Assembly (NCBI GenBank): GCA_024516035.1
Contig: CM044967.1
Coordinates: forward strand, 18,326,810-18,390,809
From: Bactericera cockerelli
Lineage: Eukaryota; Arthropoda; Insecta; Hemiptera; Triozidae
Length of the DNA stretch: 64,000 bases
Direction of reading: 5' to 3'
This document shows, in pieces, positions 9,372 to 64,000 of this stretch (the first letter of the stretch is position 1; each line of letters starts with the position of its first letter). The position numbers and the translations under genes are program-made. The notes beneath the pieces were generated by a model. It made no database searches, was not told the origin of the DNA, and saw only the letters and a list, made by a program, of their open reading frames with translations.

Positions 9372-9733
9372 AAAGTACATAAGTTTTTGATCCAAAGTAT
9401 ATAATTTAGGGGACTGACCGATCCTTCAGTCCAGCCACTGGTTCTTACAAGATAATTACTGTAATCAGAGATGATGATGTGTATATGAATGTATATGTAG
9501 ATGATATGATATAATAATATGAAGACAGCTATGCGAGTTATGAAAAAAAAAAATTCAAAGCTGATGAAGACTCATCAGAGTGGTGAACCTTCTTGTAGAA
9601 ATTGTGCTCATATTGCGACCCCACTCAGGCAAATGAGGTTAATGTGATTATTTGATCCAACAAAGAGATATGACCTTCTGTTGACTGTTCGAGAGCACTA
9701 TATGAACTCCAGGGGCAAGACAGAAAAGTTCTC

Positions 9734-14863: not shown

Positions 14864-15087
14864 CCCGCCAGCGTCGATGGCGCGTTGAATGCACCGGTTC
14901 TCGTTGGATCACCGAAGTTAAGCAACGTTCAGCGAGGTGAAGACTTCGTGATGCTGGCATTCCGGCCCAACCCAGGCTGGGTGAGGTTAATGTGGGTAGC
15001 AGGTTTGTGAGTTTCCTGCGAATGGAGGGTAACACCCCCGTTGTGATATGACCATGCAGTTGAAAGCGACGTTAAAAACAAAAAAAA
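14864..15087 (+). mobile_element. SINE-F, full-length 5S rRNA-derived SINE
   Basis: Begins with a 5S rRNA-like head (gccagcgtcgatggcgcg, accggttctcgttggatcac, gaagttaagcaacgttcagc), which in 5S genes holds the box A internal promoter. The box C region is reduced to gtgaagacttcgtga. The central domain aacccaggctgggtgaggtt follows, then gaatggagggtaa and a tail agcgacgttaaaaac with a poly-A run. The 9-bp repeat aaacgagtt at 14855-14863 and 15088-15096 is the target duplication. Other copies: 6.9, 18.6, 24.3, 56.9 kb. Confidence 0.9.
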
Positions 15088-18596: not shown

Positions 18597-18805
18597 TTTA
18601 ACGTCGTTTTTCAACTGCATGGTCATACACCAGGGGGGTTTAACCCTTCATTCGCAGGAAACTTACAAACCTGCTACCCACATTGACCTCACCCAGCCTG
18701 GGTTGGGCCGGAACGTCAACATCACGAAGTCTTCACCTCGCTGGACATTGCTTAACTTCGGTGATCCTACGAGAACCGGTGCATTCAACACGCCATCGAC
18801 GCTGA
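18597..18805 (-). mobile_element. SINE-F, near full length
   Basis: On the minus strand: gtcagcgtcgatggcgtgtt, gaagttaagcaatgtccagc, central domain, gaatgaagggttaa, then the gaaaaacgacgttaaac tail. Box C is deleted as in the 14.9-kb copy. Confidence 0.85.
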
Positions 18806-19057
18806 CAATAGATAAACGTTCAATCGCGACCATTGTTCATCCTAACAAAAGAAAATCACACGAGGAGAAAAAGTGTAAACTACGTTGAACAGAGTGAAAA
18901 ATGATGTCTTTGAAATTACATATTAGGAGGGCTTAAGAAAAAAATATTGGAGATTTTTCCGGAAAACCCTTGTACATTCTTTTCCACGATGAAGCGACGT
19001 TTGAAATATTTATTTGTCAAACATTATTATGAAATGCCTTGACTTTCTCTTTCCCGT

Positions 19058-25249: not shown

Positions 25250-25463
25250 CGCTCTTTAGTGCATGGAAGGTAACCATCAGGCGAGGTTAATGCTCAAAGC
25301 ATTTTCCATCACGTAACCGTCAGTGCTTTATTATTATGTGGTTATATGTCTACTCAAATTTATGAGGAAAAAATCATGCATTGGGTGGGATTCGAACCAA
25401 CGAATCCCTACGCTAGCTGAATTACCAGGCTAACGCCCTAACCACTTGACTGCCAATGCACGG
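25250..25463 (-). mobile_element. SINE-B, full length
   Basis: Plus strand shows the complement in order: tggaaggtaaccatcaggcg, aggttaatgctcaaagcatt, then ggtgggattcgaaccaacga (B box) and ccctaaccacttgactgcca. A LINE-C fragment follows directly. Confidence 0.88.
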
Positions 25464-26116: not shown

Positions 26117-26383
26117 GGTTTGTCTGAATGAATGGTCTCAGGGTATGAAGTTTGTCTGAATGAATGGTCTCACAGGGTATGAGGTTTGTCTGAATGAATG
26201 GTCTCAGGGTATGAGGTTTGTCTGAATGAATGGTCTCAGGGTATCAGGTTTGTCTAAATGAATGGTCTCAGGGTATCAGGTTTGTCTGAATGAATGGTCT
26301 CAGGGTATGAGGTGTGTCTGAATGAATGGTCTCAGGGTATGAGGTTTGTCTGAATGAATGGTCTCAGGGTAATATGAGGTTTG
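26117..26383. repeat. 32-bp minisatellite, left block
   Basis: About eight copies of a unit containing ggtttgtctgaatgaatggt and ctcagggtatga, with very few differences. Split from the right block by a K insertion. Confidence 0.95.
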
Positions 26384-26651
26384 TTGTTGTTGTTGTAGCC
26401 AGCTTGGCTACAGCTGGAGGGGTGGGTGATGGTCTCCAGCCAACTTTATTTCAGAGTTGGCTCGTCCTGAACCACATATTTCTATGTGCGATGAACCATC
26501 ATGAGGACTTGGACTTTTCTTTATAAGCCATTAAACCCTTAGGAAACTGCAAGCTGGCCTGGCTTGTAAGGGTTGGCTAGTCTGTTATCTGTTTATAGTC
26601 CTCTAGCGAGACACTGGTCTTCTCCCTGTTTAACGTCCCCCAGCCAGACTA
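26383..26651 (-). mobile_element. K retroposon inside the minisatellite
   Basis: Complete K in complement: ttgttgttgttgtagccagc, ctggaggggtgggtgatggt, ttctccctgtttaacgtccc, ccagccagact. Flanks tatgaggtttgt on both sides are either the target duplication or part of the repeat unit. Seven of fifteen units lie beyond it, so the array predates the insertion or expanded on both sides. Confidence 0.92.
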
Positions 26652-26878
26652 GTATGAGGTTTGTCTGAATGAATGGTCTCGGGGTAGAGGTTTGTCTGAA
26701 TGAATGGTCTCAGGGTAGAGGTTTGTCTGAATGAATGGTCTCAGGGTATGAGGTTTGTCTGAATGAATGGTCTCAGGGTATGAGGTTTGTCTGAATGAAT
26801 GGTCTCAGGGTATGAGGTTTGTCTGAATGAATGGTCTCAGGGTATGAGGTTTGTCTGAATGAATGGTCTCAGAGGGTT
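26652..26878. repeat. 32-bp minisatellite, right block
   Basis: About seven further units; the first two are 2 bases shorter (cagggtagag) than the rest. Confidence 0.95.
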
Positions 26879-30304: not shown

Positions 30305-30520
30305 CTGTTGTCCAGTCCAGGAATGATCTGATATTTAGTTACATCTGATACAACTTCTCACTTTTCTGTTTTATACTGATTAAAATAGGGGTTACTTGAC
30401 GGCATGGATAATCAGAACTACAACCTGCTAATGAGAGCAAGCTTGAAACAGCTGTCCAGGTATGTTCTGATATTCGTGTACATCTGATAAAACTTCTCAC
30501 TTTTCTGTTTATACTCATGT
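30304..30520 (+). repeat. HHR-L array with one complete hammerhead-like unit
   Basis: A partial unit (tgttgtccagtccaggaatg) is followed by the spacer aacttctcacttttctgttt and then a full motif. Spacing between the two cagg sites (30318 and 30457) is 139 bp, consistent with a head-to-tail dimer. A second spacer follows the motif. Confidence 0.8.
30408..30476 (+). ncRNA. Hammerhead ribozyme motif, type I, mutated core
   Basis: Stem I arms aatcagaac...acctg and caggtatgttctgat pair. The core reads ctaatga where ctgatga is required, so the invariant G is A. Stem II is gagc/gctt with a 2-base loop, then gaaa, acagctgt and the GUC triplet. Predicted inactive because of the core change. Confidence 0.75.
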
Positions 30521-33361: not shown

Positions 33362-33569
33362 TAAAAAATAATATCGCCTTATTTATACTGCTCAATGAAG
33401 ACTATCAAAGTCCCATTATTCCATCAGTAAGACCAAGACATATTATTATGTGGTAAAAATCCCAAATAGGAGGATAACTTGTCATGTCCCGGATGGGTTT
33501 CGAACCCATGATCTCTGGAATCTCTGGATTCAGAGAGTGCCGCCTTTACCACTGAGATACCGGGACAGA
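33362..33569 (-). mobile_element. SINE-E
   Basis: Complement order intact from the aataat tail to ataccgggaca; several substitutions (gatgggtttcgaacccatga). Confidence 0.88.
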
Positions 33570-34629: not shown

Positions 34630-34930
34630 ACAGCTGTTGCAAAACTGTTCAGGTATGTTCTGATATTCATGCACAACTTCTCACTTTTCTGTTTATTCTC
34701 GTTCAGGAATGTTCTTATATTCATGTACAACTAGTCCAAGTTCTCACTTTTCTGTTTATTATCGTAAAAATAGAGAGGTTAAGTTGATGGCATGGATAAT
34801 CAAAACTATTACCTACTGATGAGAGCAAATAAGCTTGAAACAGCTGCTCAGGTATTTTCTGATATTCATGTACATCTAGTACAACTTCTCACTTTTCTGT
34901 TTATACTCATTATACTCATACTCTTCCTAC
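34630..34930 (+). repeat. HHR-L array, two partial and one complete unit
   Basis: caggtatgttctgatattca and related sites occur at 34650, 34704 and 34849. Spacer aacttctcacttttctgttt is present three times. Spacing of the last two sites is 145 bp, one monomer. Confidence 0.8.
34798..34868 (+). ncRNA. Hammerhead ribozyme motif, type I, cleavage site mutated
   Basis: ctgatga core, stem II gagc-aaataa-gctt and gaaa are present, but the cleavage region reads acagctgctcagg where acagctgtccagg is expected, so the GUC triplet is lost. Stem I is weakened (accta against caggt). Predicted inactive. Confidence 0.75.
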
Positions 34931-35042
34931 CCAGTGGATTTTAGAGCATCCCTCCACCTGGTTTCTCTTAGATTCTTTTAAATCACATCTGATTCTCTCC
35001 ACAAAAACATCATTCCTCCTTGTAATCATTATGAATTCCTCT

Positions 35043-35250
35043 TAGTCTGTTCCGGTAGCTCAGTGGTAAAGGCGGCACTCTGTGAATCCAGAGGTTCTAG
35101 TGGTCCCGGGTTCGAAACCCAGCCAGGTCATGACAAGTTTTCCTTTGGTATTTTAACCACATAATAATACGTCATAGGCTTACTGCTGGAATATTGGGAC
35201 TTAGTAGTCCTAATCGGGCAGTTTAAATAAGGCGATATTATTATTATTAA
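35043..35250 (+). mobile_element. SINE-E
   Basis: ttccggtagctcagtggtaa, gtcccgggttcgaaaccc, cttactgctggaatattggg, gcgatattattattatta. Sense-strand copy. Confidence 0.88.
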
Positions 35251-35251
35251 A

Positions 35252-35345
35252 ATAGAGAGGTTAATTGATGACATGGATACTCAGAACTTATACCTGCTGA
35301 TGAGAGCAAATGAGCTCGAAACAACTTCTCACTTTTCTGTTTATA
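35252..35345 (+). repeat. HHR-L unit with 3' half of ribozyme deleted
   Basis: aatagaggggtt-type spacer, stem I 5' arm tcagaacttatacctg, ctgatga, gagc-aaatga-gctc and gaaac, then directly aacttctcacttttctgttt. The segment from stem III through the stem I 3' arm is gone, apparently by deletion between two aac trinucleotides. Confidence 0.8.
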
Positions 35346-35592
35346 CTAATACTAGCGGGCTGTCGCCCGCTTTGCAGGCCGAGGCATGGCCGTGAAAGCA
35401 AAAAATCCTTTTTCGCCAATGGCAGGTGTTGTAGTGGGAATTTCGAAAAATCCCGTCTTATTGCACATCTAGACTATAAGACAAAGCTACCTACCAAATC
35501 TCAGCTTCCTAGGACTTACGGTTTGGGCTGTAGAGCGATGATCAGTCAGTGGTCAGTCAGTCAGTGACTTTGACATTTATATATTAAGATAT
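35346..35592 (+). mobile_element. Dispersed insect-type element fragment
   Basis: tactagcgggctgtcgccc with gggaatttcgaaaaatcc and a cagtcagtggtcagtcagtc run follows the order of a repeat widespread in insect genomes that is often linked to Helitron-like elements. The class is from memory; no Helitron end is demonstrated here. Confidence 0.45.
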
Positions 35593-38118: not shown

Positions 38119-38224
38119 AGGCTGGGGAGAAAAAAATGGGAGAACTCATGTAGAATATTTCGAAATATTACCTACTCCGATAAATAAACAGTATTGTACA
38201 CGTCTTTTAGAAATAGAGTTCTGA

Positions 38225-38332
38225 ACATCCATGCCATCAACCAACCTATCTATTTTAATCAGTACAAACCGAAAAGTGAGAAGTTGTACTAGATGTACAT
38301 GAATACCAGAACATTGTACACGTCTTTTAAAA
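38225..38332 (-). repeat. HHR-L spacer copy without ribozyme core
   Basis: On the minus strand: tattcatgtacatctagtac, aacttctcacttttcggttt, aaaatagataggttggttga, tggcatggat, then unrelated sequence where the ctgatga core should be. Confidence 0.75.
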
Positions 38333-40409: not shown

Positions 40410-41525
40410 TGTAAATTGTATGATGAAGCCGGGCAATACTCAAACGTATGTTGAATTGCCGACGAAGTCGCATTTAGATCCCACGCGTGAAAATTCATGA
40501 GTTTGCAGTCGAAATCCGCCCGCTCACTAATGCAATAACAATAAATAATTTAAGGCTTTCAAAAATGAGCACCGTCACTACTGAACATTCATGTATTGTC
40601 CATTACGGCATAGGGAGAAGGGTCGCAGGTTTCGAAAACTTTTCTAAAGGAATAAAAAAAACTTCATCTCTAGCCTTCGACAGAAAGAAATAATAAAAAA
40701 AAACCCAAAGTACAGGAGCTTTCTTCAATTTTTCATCGGCTCGAGAGGAGACAAAGAAAACGATAATTTAATAGATTAACTTTATTTCTGTTGGGGTTGA
40801 CTGTAAGCTGGGATGTCTCGGAATTTTTCAATAATAATGAAAAGAAGAGAGAAGAGAAAAAAGAAAGAAAAAATACAGATTACAGAGCGTGTTTCAAAAC
40901 GCAATTAGGTTTTTTTAAAGATAAAAAATTGTCTGTTTTAATTTGCAACTATTAGGCTCAAATTTGTTCTTGTTATAAATTAAGGGCTCATCAAAATACC
41001 TTAATGTTGACACAGAATGCACGTTTCTTTGACGATGTTTATGGGCTGTCATCAAAGGTCCTTTAAAATCCATCAAAGTTCTTTAGTTAGTTTCAAAAAA
41101 AAAAAAATCGCATAGTCTGGTCACTTGAATGATCTGCCCAACATATTAACTTATGATGTACTCAAGCCTAAACTGATCAAAACGCATGACTAGCCAGATG
41201 GCGTGCGACACTCGTCTCATTAATACATAGGATTTTGATACTTACGATCATTTATGCCTACATTAATACCAAAGTTAGACATAAATATTTTGATATTGAA
41301 ATAATAATAGTAATAATCATAATAATAACACAAAACCCTATAACAAGCATAATGACTCAGTTCACAGGCTCACGGTAAGTATAGGTACATAATATTTATA
41401 ATCGGGTAGTACCTACCTATTTAACAAAATAATTGATAGTTCAAAAGTGCCTCTTATCCTCACAATATGTTTGTTTCGAATCATTTATGTGTTGATTTTA
41501 TGGTAAAAATTGAGAAAAGCTCGAG
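40410..41525. other. No repeat family recognised
   Basis: Mostly unique-looking AT-rich sequence. A 68-codon frame at 40487-40693 has no recognisable motif. Confidence 0.4.
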
Positions 41526-41528
41526 TTT

Positions 41529-41850
41529 GAATTGCAACGAACTTTGTCCTGATTGTCCATTTAGGAAAAGTGAGAGATGCTATATTATGAACTTCTCACT
41601 TTTCTATTTATACCTACTAACTGAGTTGAGAAATGTCTAAGTTAGAATTGCAACGAACTTTGTCCTGATTGTCCATTTGGGAAAAGTGAGAGATCCAATG
41701 GTATGAACTTCTCACTTTTCTGTTTATAACTGACTGAATAATTCTCAATAATAAAATTGAGAAAAGCCCGGGTTAGAATTGCAACGAACTTTGTCCTGAT
41801 TGTCCATTCAGGAAAAGTGAGAGATCCTGTGGTATAAAATAAGAAAAGAT
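41529..41850. repeat. Tandem satellite, three units of ~116-131 bp
   Basis: gaattgcaacgaactttgtc starts at 41529, 41645 and 41776. Each unit contains aaaagtgagag and, further on, tgaacttctcacttttct, which can fold into an 11-bp hairpin. The second block is shared with the HHR-L spacer, but there is no ctgatga/gaaa core. Confidence 0.85.
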
Positions 41851-43601: not shown

Positions 43602-43855
43602 TTCTTCTTCTTCTTTCACTTTGCCTTTTCCCAAACCTACTTGGGGTCGGCATTTGTTCCATGAATCCTTTCCTTCCATATCTTTCTATTTAGTGCGTCC
43701 CCTTTTCTCCAGTCTTTCTCTCTTAGGTCTTCTTCAACTTTGTGTCTCCATCTCATCTTTGGTCTTCCTCTCTTTCTTTTACCGCCTATTTGAAGTTCAT
43801 GTATTCTCTTACTCACATAGTTTTCGTCTCTTCGCTCTCTATACAGAATGATAAT
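43602..43855 (-). pseudogene. 3' end of an RTE-like LINE with reverse transcriptase C-terminus
   Basis: A minus-strand frame encodes a C-terminal segment with VSKRIHELQIGGKRKRGRP, KMRWRHKVEEDLREKDW, GDALNRKIWKERIHG and ADPK. The KRGRPKxRW, DAxxRxxW and xxADP order is that of the conserved tail of RTE-clade and related endonuclease-reverse transcriptases. The frame then passes into the 3' tail gggaaaaggcaaagtgaaag and (gaa)n. Upstream RT and endonuclease domains are missing (5' truncation). Confidence 0.85.
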
Positions 43856-43869
43856 AATAATATCCAATA

Positions 43870-44600
43870 ATAATGGGAACTAATAAGAATAAATAAATGC
43901 CTGTTGCTAAATAAATATGGAATGAGTAAGCTTTTCATAAACTCTGTGAACAGCCCCGAGGCTTGAAGCAATTTTCATTCTACACCTCTCAATGTTTTCA
44001 CTTCTGAATGGGAGAAAGCCCGGAGGGAATGGGCGCAATACAAATAGGCTTGATCATGGCCTATTGACTTGACTTCCGGCATAGCTGAAAATTATAGCTC
44101 CCCGAAAAATACTCGTTGTGTGCAAGAAACGCCAGGATCACGTTTTATGGCTTTAATTGTGCATTGCATTGTCTGATTAATGGATATGTTCAATTGTTCA
44201 TATAGCATATTCCCCCCTTAAAAATGCATACATAATTATGTATATTTGACTCATATTCAATTTTAAGGGCCTTCAGCCAGCATGAAGAAATTGGTGATGA
44301 CTTAAAAATTAGAAAAAAAAAGGGAGCAGTAAATAGAAAAAAAAAGTCAATATTACTCTTTTTTTATCCCTAAAAAACAATTTCATGGTTGAGAACAATT
44401 TTTCTATTTGTATATTGTAATACTGTTTCAAATGTTTTGTAAATTATTTGTTCAATAAAGGCTATTTTATTTTATTTTATTTTTTTATTTTATTCAATAT
44501 ACATACTCGTATTATACGTACACAATACACCTTTTGTCGGTCAAGCAAGGTCTCGTCAGTTTTCTCTTGGGTTCTCGTCAGTTTTCTGATGCACACAAAT
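43870..44600. other. Unique-looking region
   Basis: No gene or repeat family recognised. It ends at a (ttta)n run near 44465. Confidence 0.4.
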
Positions 44601-53466: not shown

Positions 53467-53758
53467 AGAAACTTTACTAAGTTCAGGTATGAGTGACATC
53501 AATCTGACAATTGGAAGATATATTAAGCAAACCTCGTTTGATTTACGGGAATTTTACCATTCACACTAACTAGCTACACACTTCGCAGTCTGAGACAAGC
53601 CAGAAATAGTCTCGATAGTTCCAATTAAGGTGGTAACACTAGTAGACCACCAAGTCCCAAACTTGCTCGTTGCCACCTAATCCAGTAATCTAGTCTGAAC
53701 GTTGCTTAGCTTTAGTGATCTAACGAGAAACAGGCCCGAAATAATGAACGCTGCTGTG

Positions 53759-54025
53759 TGGTTGTTTTTGTTGTAGCCAGCTTGCCTACTGCTGGGGGGA
53801 GTGATGGTCTCCAGCCAAACGCAACAGAAAAGTTTGCTCGTTCTGTACTACATATTTCTATGTGCGATTATCCATGGTGAGAATTTGGGCTTTTTCTTTA
53901 TAAGACGTTAACCCTTTGGAAACTGCAAGCTAGTCTGGCTTGTTAGGATTGGCTAGTCAGTTCTCTGTTTATAGTTCTCTGGTGAGACACTGGTCTTCTC
54001 CCTGTTTAACGTCCCCCAGCTAGGC
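53759..54025 (-). mobile_element. K retroposon with 12-bp target duplication
   Basis: Complement of K from the tail (gtttttgttgtagccagctt) to the head (ttctccctgtttaacgtccc, ccagctagg). aacgctgctgtg flanks it at 53747-53758 and 54026-54037. Confidence 0.93.
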
Positions 54026-54145
54026 AACGCTGCTGTGGTGGACAATGTTACTAAAGTATCTGATTTCAGTTATGTGATTGGCTGTTACCATGGTAACAAC
54101 AACAGTATAGTTAGTAGTGACGGTTTTCGCTTTAGCGTGCTTCAT

Positions 54146-54316
54146 TAATCAGTATAAACAAAAAAGTAAAAAGTTGTACTAGATGTATATGAATATCAGG
54201 ACATACCTGGACAGTTGTTTCGAGCTTATTTGCTCTCATCAGCAGGTAAAAGCTCTGATTATAATAATAATAATAACAACTGACCTCTCTATTTTAATCA
54301 GTATAAACAGAAACAT
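54146..54316 (-). repeat. HHR-L unit with intact hammerhead
   Basis: On the minus strand: spacer aaaatagagaggtcagttg, an (att)n expansion replacing the usual tggcatggat, the ribozyme, then tattcatatacatctagtac, aacttttt. Best preserved ribozyme in the window. Confidence 0.85.
54192..54262 (-). ncRNA. Hammerhead ribozyme, type I, core intact
   Basis: Minus-strand order: stem I 5' arm (aatcag...tacctg), ctgatga (54242-54236), stem II gagc-aaataa-gctc, gaaa (54221-54218), minimal stem III a-c-a/t-g-t around a 2-base loop, GUC (54212-54210), then the stem I 3' arm caggta...ctgat. Cleavage is predicted after C at 54210. tacctg pairs perfectly with caggta and atcag with ctgat across an internal loop. 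Tiny stem III is typical of the hammerheads of Penelope-like elements and retrozymes, which usually act as dimers. Activity is inferred. Confidence 0.85.
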
Positions 54317-56170: not shown

Positions 56171-56392
56171 TAATAATAATAATAATATCGCCTTATTTAT
56201 ACTGCCCGATTAAGACAATTAAAGTCCCATTATTCCAGCAGTAAGCCCAAGACATATTATTATGTGGTAAAAATCCCAAATGGGAGGATAACTTGTCATG
56301 TCCCGGCTGGGTTTCGAACCCACGACCTCTGGAATCTCTGGATTCACAGAGTGCCGCCTTTACCACTGAGCTACCGGGACAGACTGTCCCGG
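56171..56392 (-). mobile_element. SINE-E, full length
   Basis: Complement from (aataat) tail to accactgagctaccgggaca; the most consensus-like copy. A short sense piece, tgtcccggtagct, abuts its 5' end and makes a small palindrome. Confidence 0.93.
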
Positions 56393-56798: not shown

Positions 56799-57070
56799 TT
56801 CTTTTTTTTTTTTTCTTTTTTTTTTGGGTTTAACGTCGCTTTCAACTGCCATGGTCATATCACGACGGGGGTTTTACCCTCCATTCGCAGGAAACTCACA
56901 AACCTGCTACTCACATTGACCTCACCCAGCCTGAGTGGGGCCGGGAAAAGCCAGCGTCACGAGAATTAGAATTAGAATGGTCACCCATCCAAGTCTTAAC
57001 CTCGCTGGATGTCGCTTAACTTCGGTGTTCTGAAGGGAACCGGTGTATTCAACATGCCATCGACGCTGGC
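56799..57070 (-). mobile_element. SINE-F with 5S box C preserved
   Basis: Minus strand: gccagcgtcgatggcatgtt, ccgaagttaagcgacatcca, gcgaggttaagacttggatg, ggtgaccattc, then attctaattctcgtgacgct, the central domain and a tail with an A-run (plus-strand T-run 56799-56827). The acttggatgggtgacc segment (56979-56994) is the 5S box C sequence deleted in the other SINE-F copies here. This copy therefore shows the 5S origin most clearly. Confidence 0.9.
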
Positions 57071-59620: not shown

Positions 59621-59654
59621 TTAACACGAAAGTGATTAACACAAATATGTTTAT

Positions 59655-59800
59655 ACCAATTAAAATAGAGAGGTTAGTTGATGACATGGATAATCAGAAC
59701 TATTACCTGCTGATGAGAGCAAATAAACAGCTGTCCAGGTATGTTCTGATACTTATGTACATCTAATACAACTTCTCACTTTTATGTTTATACTAATTAT
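59655..59800 (+). repeat. HHR-L unit
   Basis: aaaatagagaggttagttga, tgacatggat, ribozyme remnant, tgtacatctaatac, aacttctcacttttatgttt. Confidence 0.8.
59692..59750 (+). ncRNA. Hammerhead motif with 7-nt core deletion
   Basis: aatcagaactattacctg, ctgatga, gagcaaataa are followed directly by acagctgtccaggtatg and ttctgat. The gctcgaa heptamer (stem II 3' strand plus most of gaaa) is missing. Stem I and GUC are intact. Predicted inactive. Confidence 0.8.
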
Positions 59801-60267
59801 ACTAATACTATACTAAACTATTTTTGTATGTAGTAACTTTTTTATTATCTTTGATACCACCCGGATACTTCAGGGCACCCTGTACATATGCTTACAAATT
59901 ATTTATAATTGACAAAGCTATTGTTCCAATGCATTGTTACATTGGATTCTAATAATGACACACTGTACCTCTTGGCTAGCTATTATATCTCGCGCTAGTC
60001 TCTCATTACTCCTCACCGGTACCGATGGTATTCTAATATGCGATTGCCAACATTCTAGATACTCGGCAGTGCGCCAGGCCCAGTTCCGGCTTTGACACTG
60101 TGTGTAAATTTTTACTTGCTCTTACCTATAGGGTATAAAAAAGTATTGTTTTAAAAAAATAGGTTTTATACTCGTACAAAATGGGCTTTTCTCAGCATAT
60201 AATTTGCTTCATTTCTAGAGTTAAAATAATTTTCAAAAATATGTTTTTTTATGTTGATATACCCACT

Positions 60268-63723: not shown

Positions 63724-63870
63724 AAGTATGTTCTGATATTCATAATAATAATAATAATAACTCTTTATTGACAAGAATAATATTGACAAAGGGCCTGACT
63801 ATTGCCTGAGGCAATCTCTGCCATCAAACCCATTCACGTACATCTAGTACAACTTCTCACTTTTCTATAC
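63724..63870 (+). repeat. HHR-L 3' part interrupted by LINE-C'
   Basis: agtatgttctgatattca (63727-63744), then the LINE-C' insertion, then attcacgtacatctagtac and aacttctcacttttct. No catalytic core remains. Confidence 0.75.
63745..63832 (-). mobile_element. LINE-C' 3' end
   Basis: Complement with (taa)n tail, actctttattgacaagaata, tattgcctgaggcaatctct, gccatcaaaccc. attca at both borders may be a short target duplication. Confidence 0.7.
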
Positions 63871-64000
63871 TCATACTGAGAATCGGACCTAGACTTAAGT
63901 TACTCCAACTCGCTCGATAAATCGCCTGAATATTAGACGCAACAAACTGCGAGTACTTAAGCCGGGGAATATCCAAAATCCATTAAATTAATCAACCCGA

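Follow-up and report, generated by a model that had tools for sequence, protein, structure and literature searches.

A probable decayed retrozyme with a type I hammerhead motif and a recurrent tail in Bactericera cockerelli

The minus strand of positions 54195-54259 carries a complete type I hammerhead motif. The positions are those of the window, the 64-kb stretch of Bactericera cockerelli DNA that was analysed as a whole, and all repeat results refer to this one window. The first-pass annotation had reported the invariant parts of a hammerhead in order on the minus strand, and every named part was found in its place. The parts are as follows:

54195-54259, minus strand: type I hammerhead, cleavage predicted between 54210 and 54209
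54259-54252 (atcagagc) and 54202-54195 (gtcctgat), minus strand: outer arms of stem I, 7 of 8 standard pairs, one G-U counted
54248-54243 (tacctg) and 54209-54204 (caggta), minus strand: inner arms of stem I, 6 of 6 pairs
54242-54236, minus strand: CTGATGA core
54235-54232 (gagc) and 54225-54222 (gctc), minus strand: stem II, 4 bp, loop aaataa
54221-54218, minus strand: GAAA core
54218-54217 with 54212-54211, minus strand: stem III, 2 bp, tetraloop AACU
54212-54210, minus strand: GUC triplet

The order CUGANGA, GAAA and NUH, the three helices and the position of stem I at the open end are those of type I. Tertiary contacts in hammerheads of this type join the loops of stems I and II; here the internal loop in stem I and a loop II of 6 nt are both present. 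The exact complementarity of the inner arms, the second helix beyond the internal loop and the 4-bp stem II were all as annotated before. Stem III was read differently. Three pairs between aca and tgt would require a loop of two bases, and it is therefore better described as 2 bp capped by AACU. The earlier comparison of stem III with Penelope-like elements and retrozymes held for the second group, since this is the form given for invertebrate retrozymes in excerpts of PMC7229834; it is not the minimal Penelope form.

A strict descriptor (core, stem II of at least 3 bp, stem III of at least 2 bp and stem I of at least 5 bp) matched the 64-kb window once, at 54.1 kb, against one match in 200 dinucleotide-shuffled windows. 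A relaxed scan also matched at position 100 on the plus strand, with a long loop and an unmatched stem I, and this match was taken as chance. The best Rfam match at 54.1 kb was Hammerhead_HH9 (RF02275), which aligned over its full length with 30.6 bits and an E-value of 5.3e-6 in a 301-base scan, below the cut-off of 52, a curation threshold and not a structural feature. No hammerhead family reached the gathering score in the whole window. The covariance search suggested by the first-pass annotation thus gave a low E-value and no match at gathering level. In the folding check that it also suggested, the fold alone was unremarkable. The free fold of the hammerhead was mildly better than that of shuffled sequences (z = -1.98; 7 of 200 shuffles were equally good), and the minimum-energy fold was not the full hammerhead: for the 77-nt strand, the drawn hammerhead had -13.2 kcal/mol versus a free minimum of -17.2 kcal/mol. 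When only the stems were requested, the same strand folded at -16.3 kcal/mol with the 2-bp stem III left open. Requesting the stems in a circle of 149 nt raised the energy by 2 kcal/mol (-22.0 versus -24.0 kcal/mol), and stem III was open again.

The hammerhead lies in a repeat. The direct repeat TTTATACTGATTA occurs twice at 54.1 kb, 149 nt apart, which indicates that the insertion consists of a full unit of 149 nt and some 19 nt of redundancy. The unit, first estimated at about 140 bp, measures 149 nt, with 30% GC. BLAST within the window found the family at seven loci (30.3, 34.6-34.9, 35.2, 38.2, 54.1, 59.6 and 63.7-63.9 kb), in agreement with the earlier description of a dispersed repeat with copies at several other places. 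The copies are listed below:

54145-54313, minus strand: retrozyme-like insertion, a 149-nt unit with about 19 nt of redundancy, delimited by phase alignment and the TTTATACTGATTA repeat
54146-54182, minus strand: tail module of the unit, phases about 28-64 past the cleavage site
30315-30518, plus strand: one unit together with a half unit that starts near the cleavage site; core broken (CTAATGA)
34643-34914, plus strand: two half units, then one unit; GCU replaces GUC in the hammerhead
35238-35350, plus strand: copy directly attached to a tRNA-like SINE, with the first bases of the copy overlapping the SINE tail; an internal deletion has removed the 3' half of its hammerhead
38217-38314, minus strand: piece without a hammerhead, adjoining a 26-bp direct repeat with one mismatch
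59648-59807, plus strand: one unit plus about 15 nt; hammerhead with an incomplete core and no 3' arm in stem II
63726-63879, plus strand: half unit without the catalytic part, split by another repeat at about 63744-63831

Hammerhead sequence is present at five of the seven loci, with a pairwise divergence of 5.6-21.4% over alignable columns. Only the 54.1 kb copy keeps every core position. The 30.4 kb hammerhead has CTAATGA and a shortened stem-loop II, the one at 34.8 kb has GCU where GUC is expected, in the one at 59.7 kb stem II is without its 3' arm and the core is incomplete, and the one at 35.3 kb lacks its 3' half. In other copies than that at 54.1 kb, the core is still largely kept, as are the inner and outer parts of stem I. 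The Rfam scores agreed with the broken cores in the three copies scanned: HH9 gave 14.4 bits at 34.8 kb, Hammerhead_1 (RF00163) gave 18.1 bits at 59.7 kb, below its cut-off of 34, and no hammerhead was found up to an E-value of 1 at 30.3 kb. With four of the five cores broken, the family looks old in this window.

More than one unit is present at 54.1, 59.6, 30.3 and 34.6 kb, and two hammerheads in tandem were found at none of the seven loci, so that no copy in the window could release a circle alone. The first-pass annotation had proposed to look for circles of about 140 nt with the junction at 54210; a single hammerhead makes one cut, and no 149-nt monomer or circle would leave this locus by itself. 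A single cut in a read-through transcript might still be made by this copy. The copies are non-coding: none of the ten reading frames of at least 120 amino acids in the window overlaps a copy, and nine of the ten are of low complexity. The 149-nt unit contains no Rfam tRNA at gathering level.

The window holds other repeats and fragments. The sequence at 53758-54023, which adjoins the 54.1 kb copy, belongs to another dispersed repeat with relatives at 26.4 and 31.0 kb (82-84% identity). The repeat within the 63.7 kb copy (about 63742-63831) has an (AAT)n end and lies between ATTCA direct repeats; a relative is present at 1043-1131 (93% identity). Rfam found tRNA-like sequences at 33485-33566, 25377-25459, 56299-56380 and 35042-35252, some of them in a dispersed SINE-like repeat, and the last is joined directly to the 35.2 kb retrozyme copy. 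Three 5S-rRNA-like sequences (14867-14959, 18714-18806 and 56949-57070; Rfam 43-65 bits), two of them shortened alike, are possibly a 5S-derived SINE family. A similarity search with a SINE-derived reading frame gave no match. A fragment of 80 amino acids at 43640-43879 on the minus strand resembles the end of a LINE protein; its closest match was a hypothetical protein of Diaphorina citri (71% identity over 83%), and Pfam gave no match to it. A 32-bp minisatellite at 26117-26872 forms two blocks flanking a dispersed repeat.

To determine where the insertions start and end, each copy was aligned with three consecutive units; phases were counted from the cleavage site (phase 0), and two reference units were used. 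Like the motif, the repeat and the unit length, these phases were observed directly. The 3' limits (one value per reference where two are given) were 65/64 at 54.1 kb, 64/70 at 59.6 kb, 62 at 30.3 kb, 64/66 at 34.9 kb and 61/62 at 63.8 kb, and the two half units at 34.64-34.76 kb ended at phases 56-60. The 38.2 kb piece was the exception; its 3' limit fell at phase 82 or 105 by reference, not at the tail. At 35.3 kb the alignment ends near the internal deletion, yet the sequence continues into the tail. Beyond the tail, some copies pass into tatactnat-like repeats. The 5' limits were found near two places. Those near the cleavage site were -3/0 at 30.3 kb, -3/-1 at 34.70 kb, +3 at 63.7 kb and +5 at 38.2 kb, and the limit at 34.64 kb was ambiguous (-7 or -23 by reference unit). 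Those near the tail were 45 at 54.1 kb, 49 at 59.6 kb and 52 at 35.2 kb, a copy that overlaps the SINE tail with its first bases. Terminal redundancy was present at 54.1, 59.6 and 30.3 kb, and amounted to 15-19 nt at the first two. That most insertions end in the tail about 62 nt past the cleavage site and several begin near that site may be new.

The 5' cluster at the cleavage site is not put forward as proof of cleavage in vivo: only three starts lie within 3 nt (30.3, 34.70 and 63.7 kb), one of them is an internal junction, the 34.64 kb start is ambiguous and the 38.2 kb start is at +5. The 26-bp flanking direct repeat at 38.2 kb, with its one mismatch, is likely a target-site duplication. 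A search at the seven loci found none that was convincing at the other six, and at 54.1 kb such a duplication would be indistinguishable from the redundancy of the unit.

The tail is not confined to the retrozyme copies. With up to 7 mismatches allowed, a 26-nt pattern of the tail matched 21 times in the window versus 0.125 times expected from 40 shuffles; 10 of the 21 matches are within retrozyme copies and 11 are elsewhere. For the phases of the sites without a hammerhead (n = 11), the match at 9725 was left out (7 mismatches, likely chance) and a site at 33.6 kb was added from BLAST. These sites end at phases 48-67 and start at 7-35 by one reference or 8-34 by the other. Four of them are in a GAACTTC variant and two are inside a tandem repeat of about 116 bp at 41506-41838, which has about three copies and holds the tail module near the inverted match gaaaagtgaga/tctcacttttc; this repeat may be a further small element that carries the tail. 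With their common ends and varied starts, the tail-only sites are either heavily 5'-truncated copies or a separate family with the same 3' end. Varied starts are the pattern expected of truncated copies. The presence of the tail at about eleven sites without a hammerhead may also be new; it may reflect mobilisation by a common enzyme or no more than the truncation of copies.

Small repeats of this kind are known. According to excerpts of PMC7229834, metazoan retrozymes are low-GC repeats of 150-450 bp without LTRs that carry type I hammerheads and give RNAs of about 170-400 nt, and stem III of the axolotl retrozyme has 2 bp and a tetraloop, similar to invertebrate hammerheads. The class is further characterised by the lack of a primer-binding site and a polypurine tract, by tandem units that place a hammerhead on either side of a unit, by target-site duplications of more than 4 bp where these occur, and by expression as both linear and circular RNA. 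In the published model, tandem transcripts cleave themselves, a host ligase circularises the monomers and a borrowed reverse transcriptase carries them to new loci (excerpts of PMC7229834 and PMC7761336). The family in the window resembles the non-LTR retrozymes described there for Acropora, Mytilus and axolotl (same source, PMC7229834) in its type I hammerhead, its 2-bp, tetraloop-capped stem III, its short, low-GC, non-coding repeats and its insertions with more than one unit. Unlike them, its unit is only 146-149 nt (at 149 nt and 30% GC, one base under the stated lower limit of 150 bp), no locus in the window has two hammerheads and the common tail is also found at other sites. The Sm-alpha repeats of schistosomes are likewise small and SINE-like with a type I hammerhead (parts of PMC6155905 and PMC4918200), and contain a full tRNA sequence (the latter, in part), unlike the 149-nt unit. 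Exact-match pattern scans of viral, bacterial and archaeal DNA found no relatives, a result that says little given these databases and the demand for exact matches. Overall, the class is already known from the parts of PMC7229834 and PMC7761336 considered, and the family is a further member at its small end.

We believed that 54145-54313 on the minus strand is probably a decayed insertion derived from a small SINE-like retrozyme, non-coding and with a type I hammerhead, an element that spread by ancestral self-cleavage and reverse transcription started at the tail. The retrozyme-like identity follows from the unit size, the low GC, the absence of coding sequence and the terminal redundancy, and the first-pass reading of the hammerhead as type I and of the surrounding sequence as a dispersed repeat was supported. 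In an active ancestor, the hammerheads in transcripts of tandem units would cleave at GUC^CAGG and yield linear RNAs of about 149 nt, and a host ligase would close some of them into circles. The reverse transcriptase of an autonomous retrotransposon would start copying at the TTTATACTnAT tail. Copying for about one lap of a circle, or along a tandem RNA, would give insertions of one unit plus 15-19 nt, and copying back to a self-cleaved 5' end would give those whose start lies close to the cleavage site. The cleavage itself, the circles, the template and the copying enzyme are inferred, and the window data fit the published model with copying started at the tail. That a self-cleaving RNA drove the spread of the family, as previously suggested, is likewise an inference.

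Several points stand against the retrozyme account: tandem hammerheads at none of the seven loci, one intact hammerhead in five, no Rfam match at gathering level, a fold not clearly above the shuffles, a target-site-like repeat at one of seven loci, and ends at 34.64 and 38.2 kb that are off the pattern. A rival explanation is an eroded tandem satellite that incidentally encodes a hammerhead and was dispersed by recombination and duplication, not by reverse transcription. The partial tandem copies at 34.6-34.9 and 30.3 kb favour this origin, and satellites are the classical site of type I hammerheads (PMC6155905, in part); given the spread over seven loci, the 3' limit that copies share in the tail and the 26-bp flanking repeat at 38.2 kb, we regard it as improbable.

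Still less credence was given to a hammerhead piece left by an autonomous Penelope-like element or Terminon. Such elements have type I hammerheads of the same topology as that at 54.1 kb and accompany retrozymes in the genomes studied (PMC7229834, in excerpt). However, their hammerheads usually have no helix III nucleotides and no tertiary interactions (PMC7761336 and PMC6155905, as excerpted), and the elements are autonomous and coding, with a reverse transcriptase sequence and the hammerhead in their terminal repeats, unlike the non-coding 149-nt unit, whose repeated hammerhead has an outer stem I and a loop that caps stem III. A partial search, Pfam on ten reading frames of the window, gave two weak matches below the cut-off, neither of them a reverse transcriptase. 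A chance look-alike in an ordinary SINE, never active as a ribozyme, would account for the missing Rfam gathering match, the four broken copies and the moderate fold; the single match in 200 shuffled windows, the HH9 E-value and the preservation in other copies of stem I, in its two parts, and of a large share of the core make it the least credible of these explanations.

Returning to the retrozyme reading, a speculative extension concerns the tail. The tail of about 35 nt (phases about 28-62), AACTTCTCACTTTTCTGTTTATACT, might have been taken over from an autonomous non-LTR retrotransposon, in which it would serve as the 3' recognition end, much as SINEs acquire the tails of LINEs, and copying from it on circles and on linear RNAs cut by the hammerhead would give the full-lap and half-unit insertions. 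We consider this doubtful, at a low yet appreciable probability. Among open-licence titles and abstracts, none described a hammerhead element whose tail also occurs in a LINE. In the available part of PMC7761336, no conserved motif in retrozyme repeats reveals the mobilising retrotransposon.

Apart from the tail, this is one more, rather small retrozyme family, old and mostly broken. The shared tail gives a lead on the enzyme that moves animal retrozymes. A family with a common tail and half-unit insertions from near the cleavage site would make the question of the partner testable in one sequenced genome. If the shared-tail reading is true, it would indicate the partner still missing for animal retrozymes and provide a genomic footprint of ribozyme cutting.
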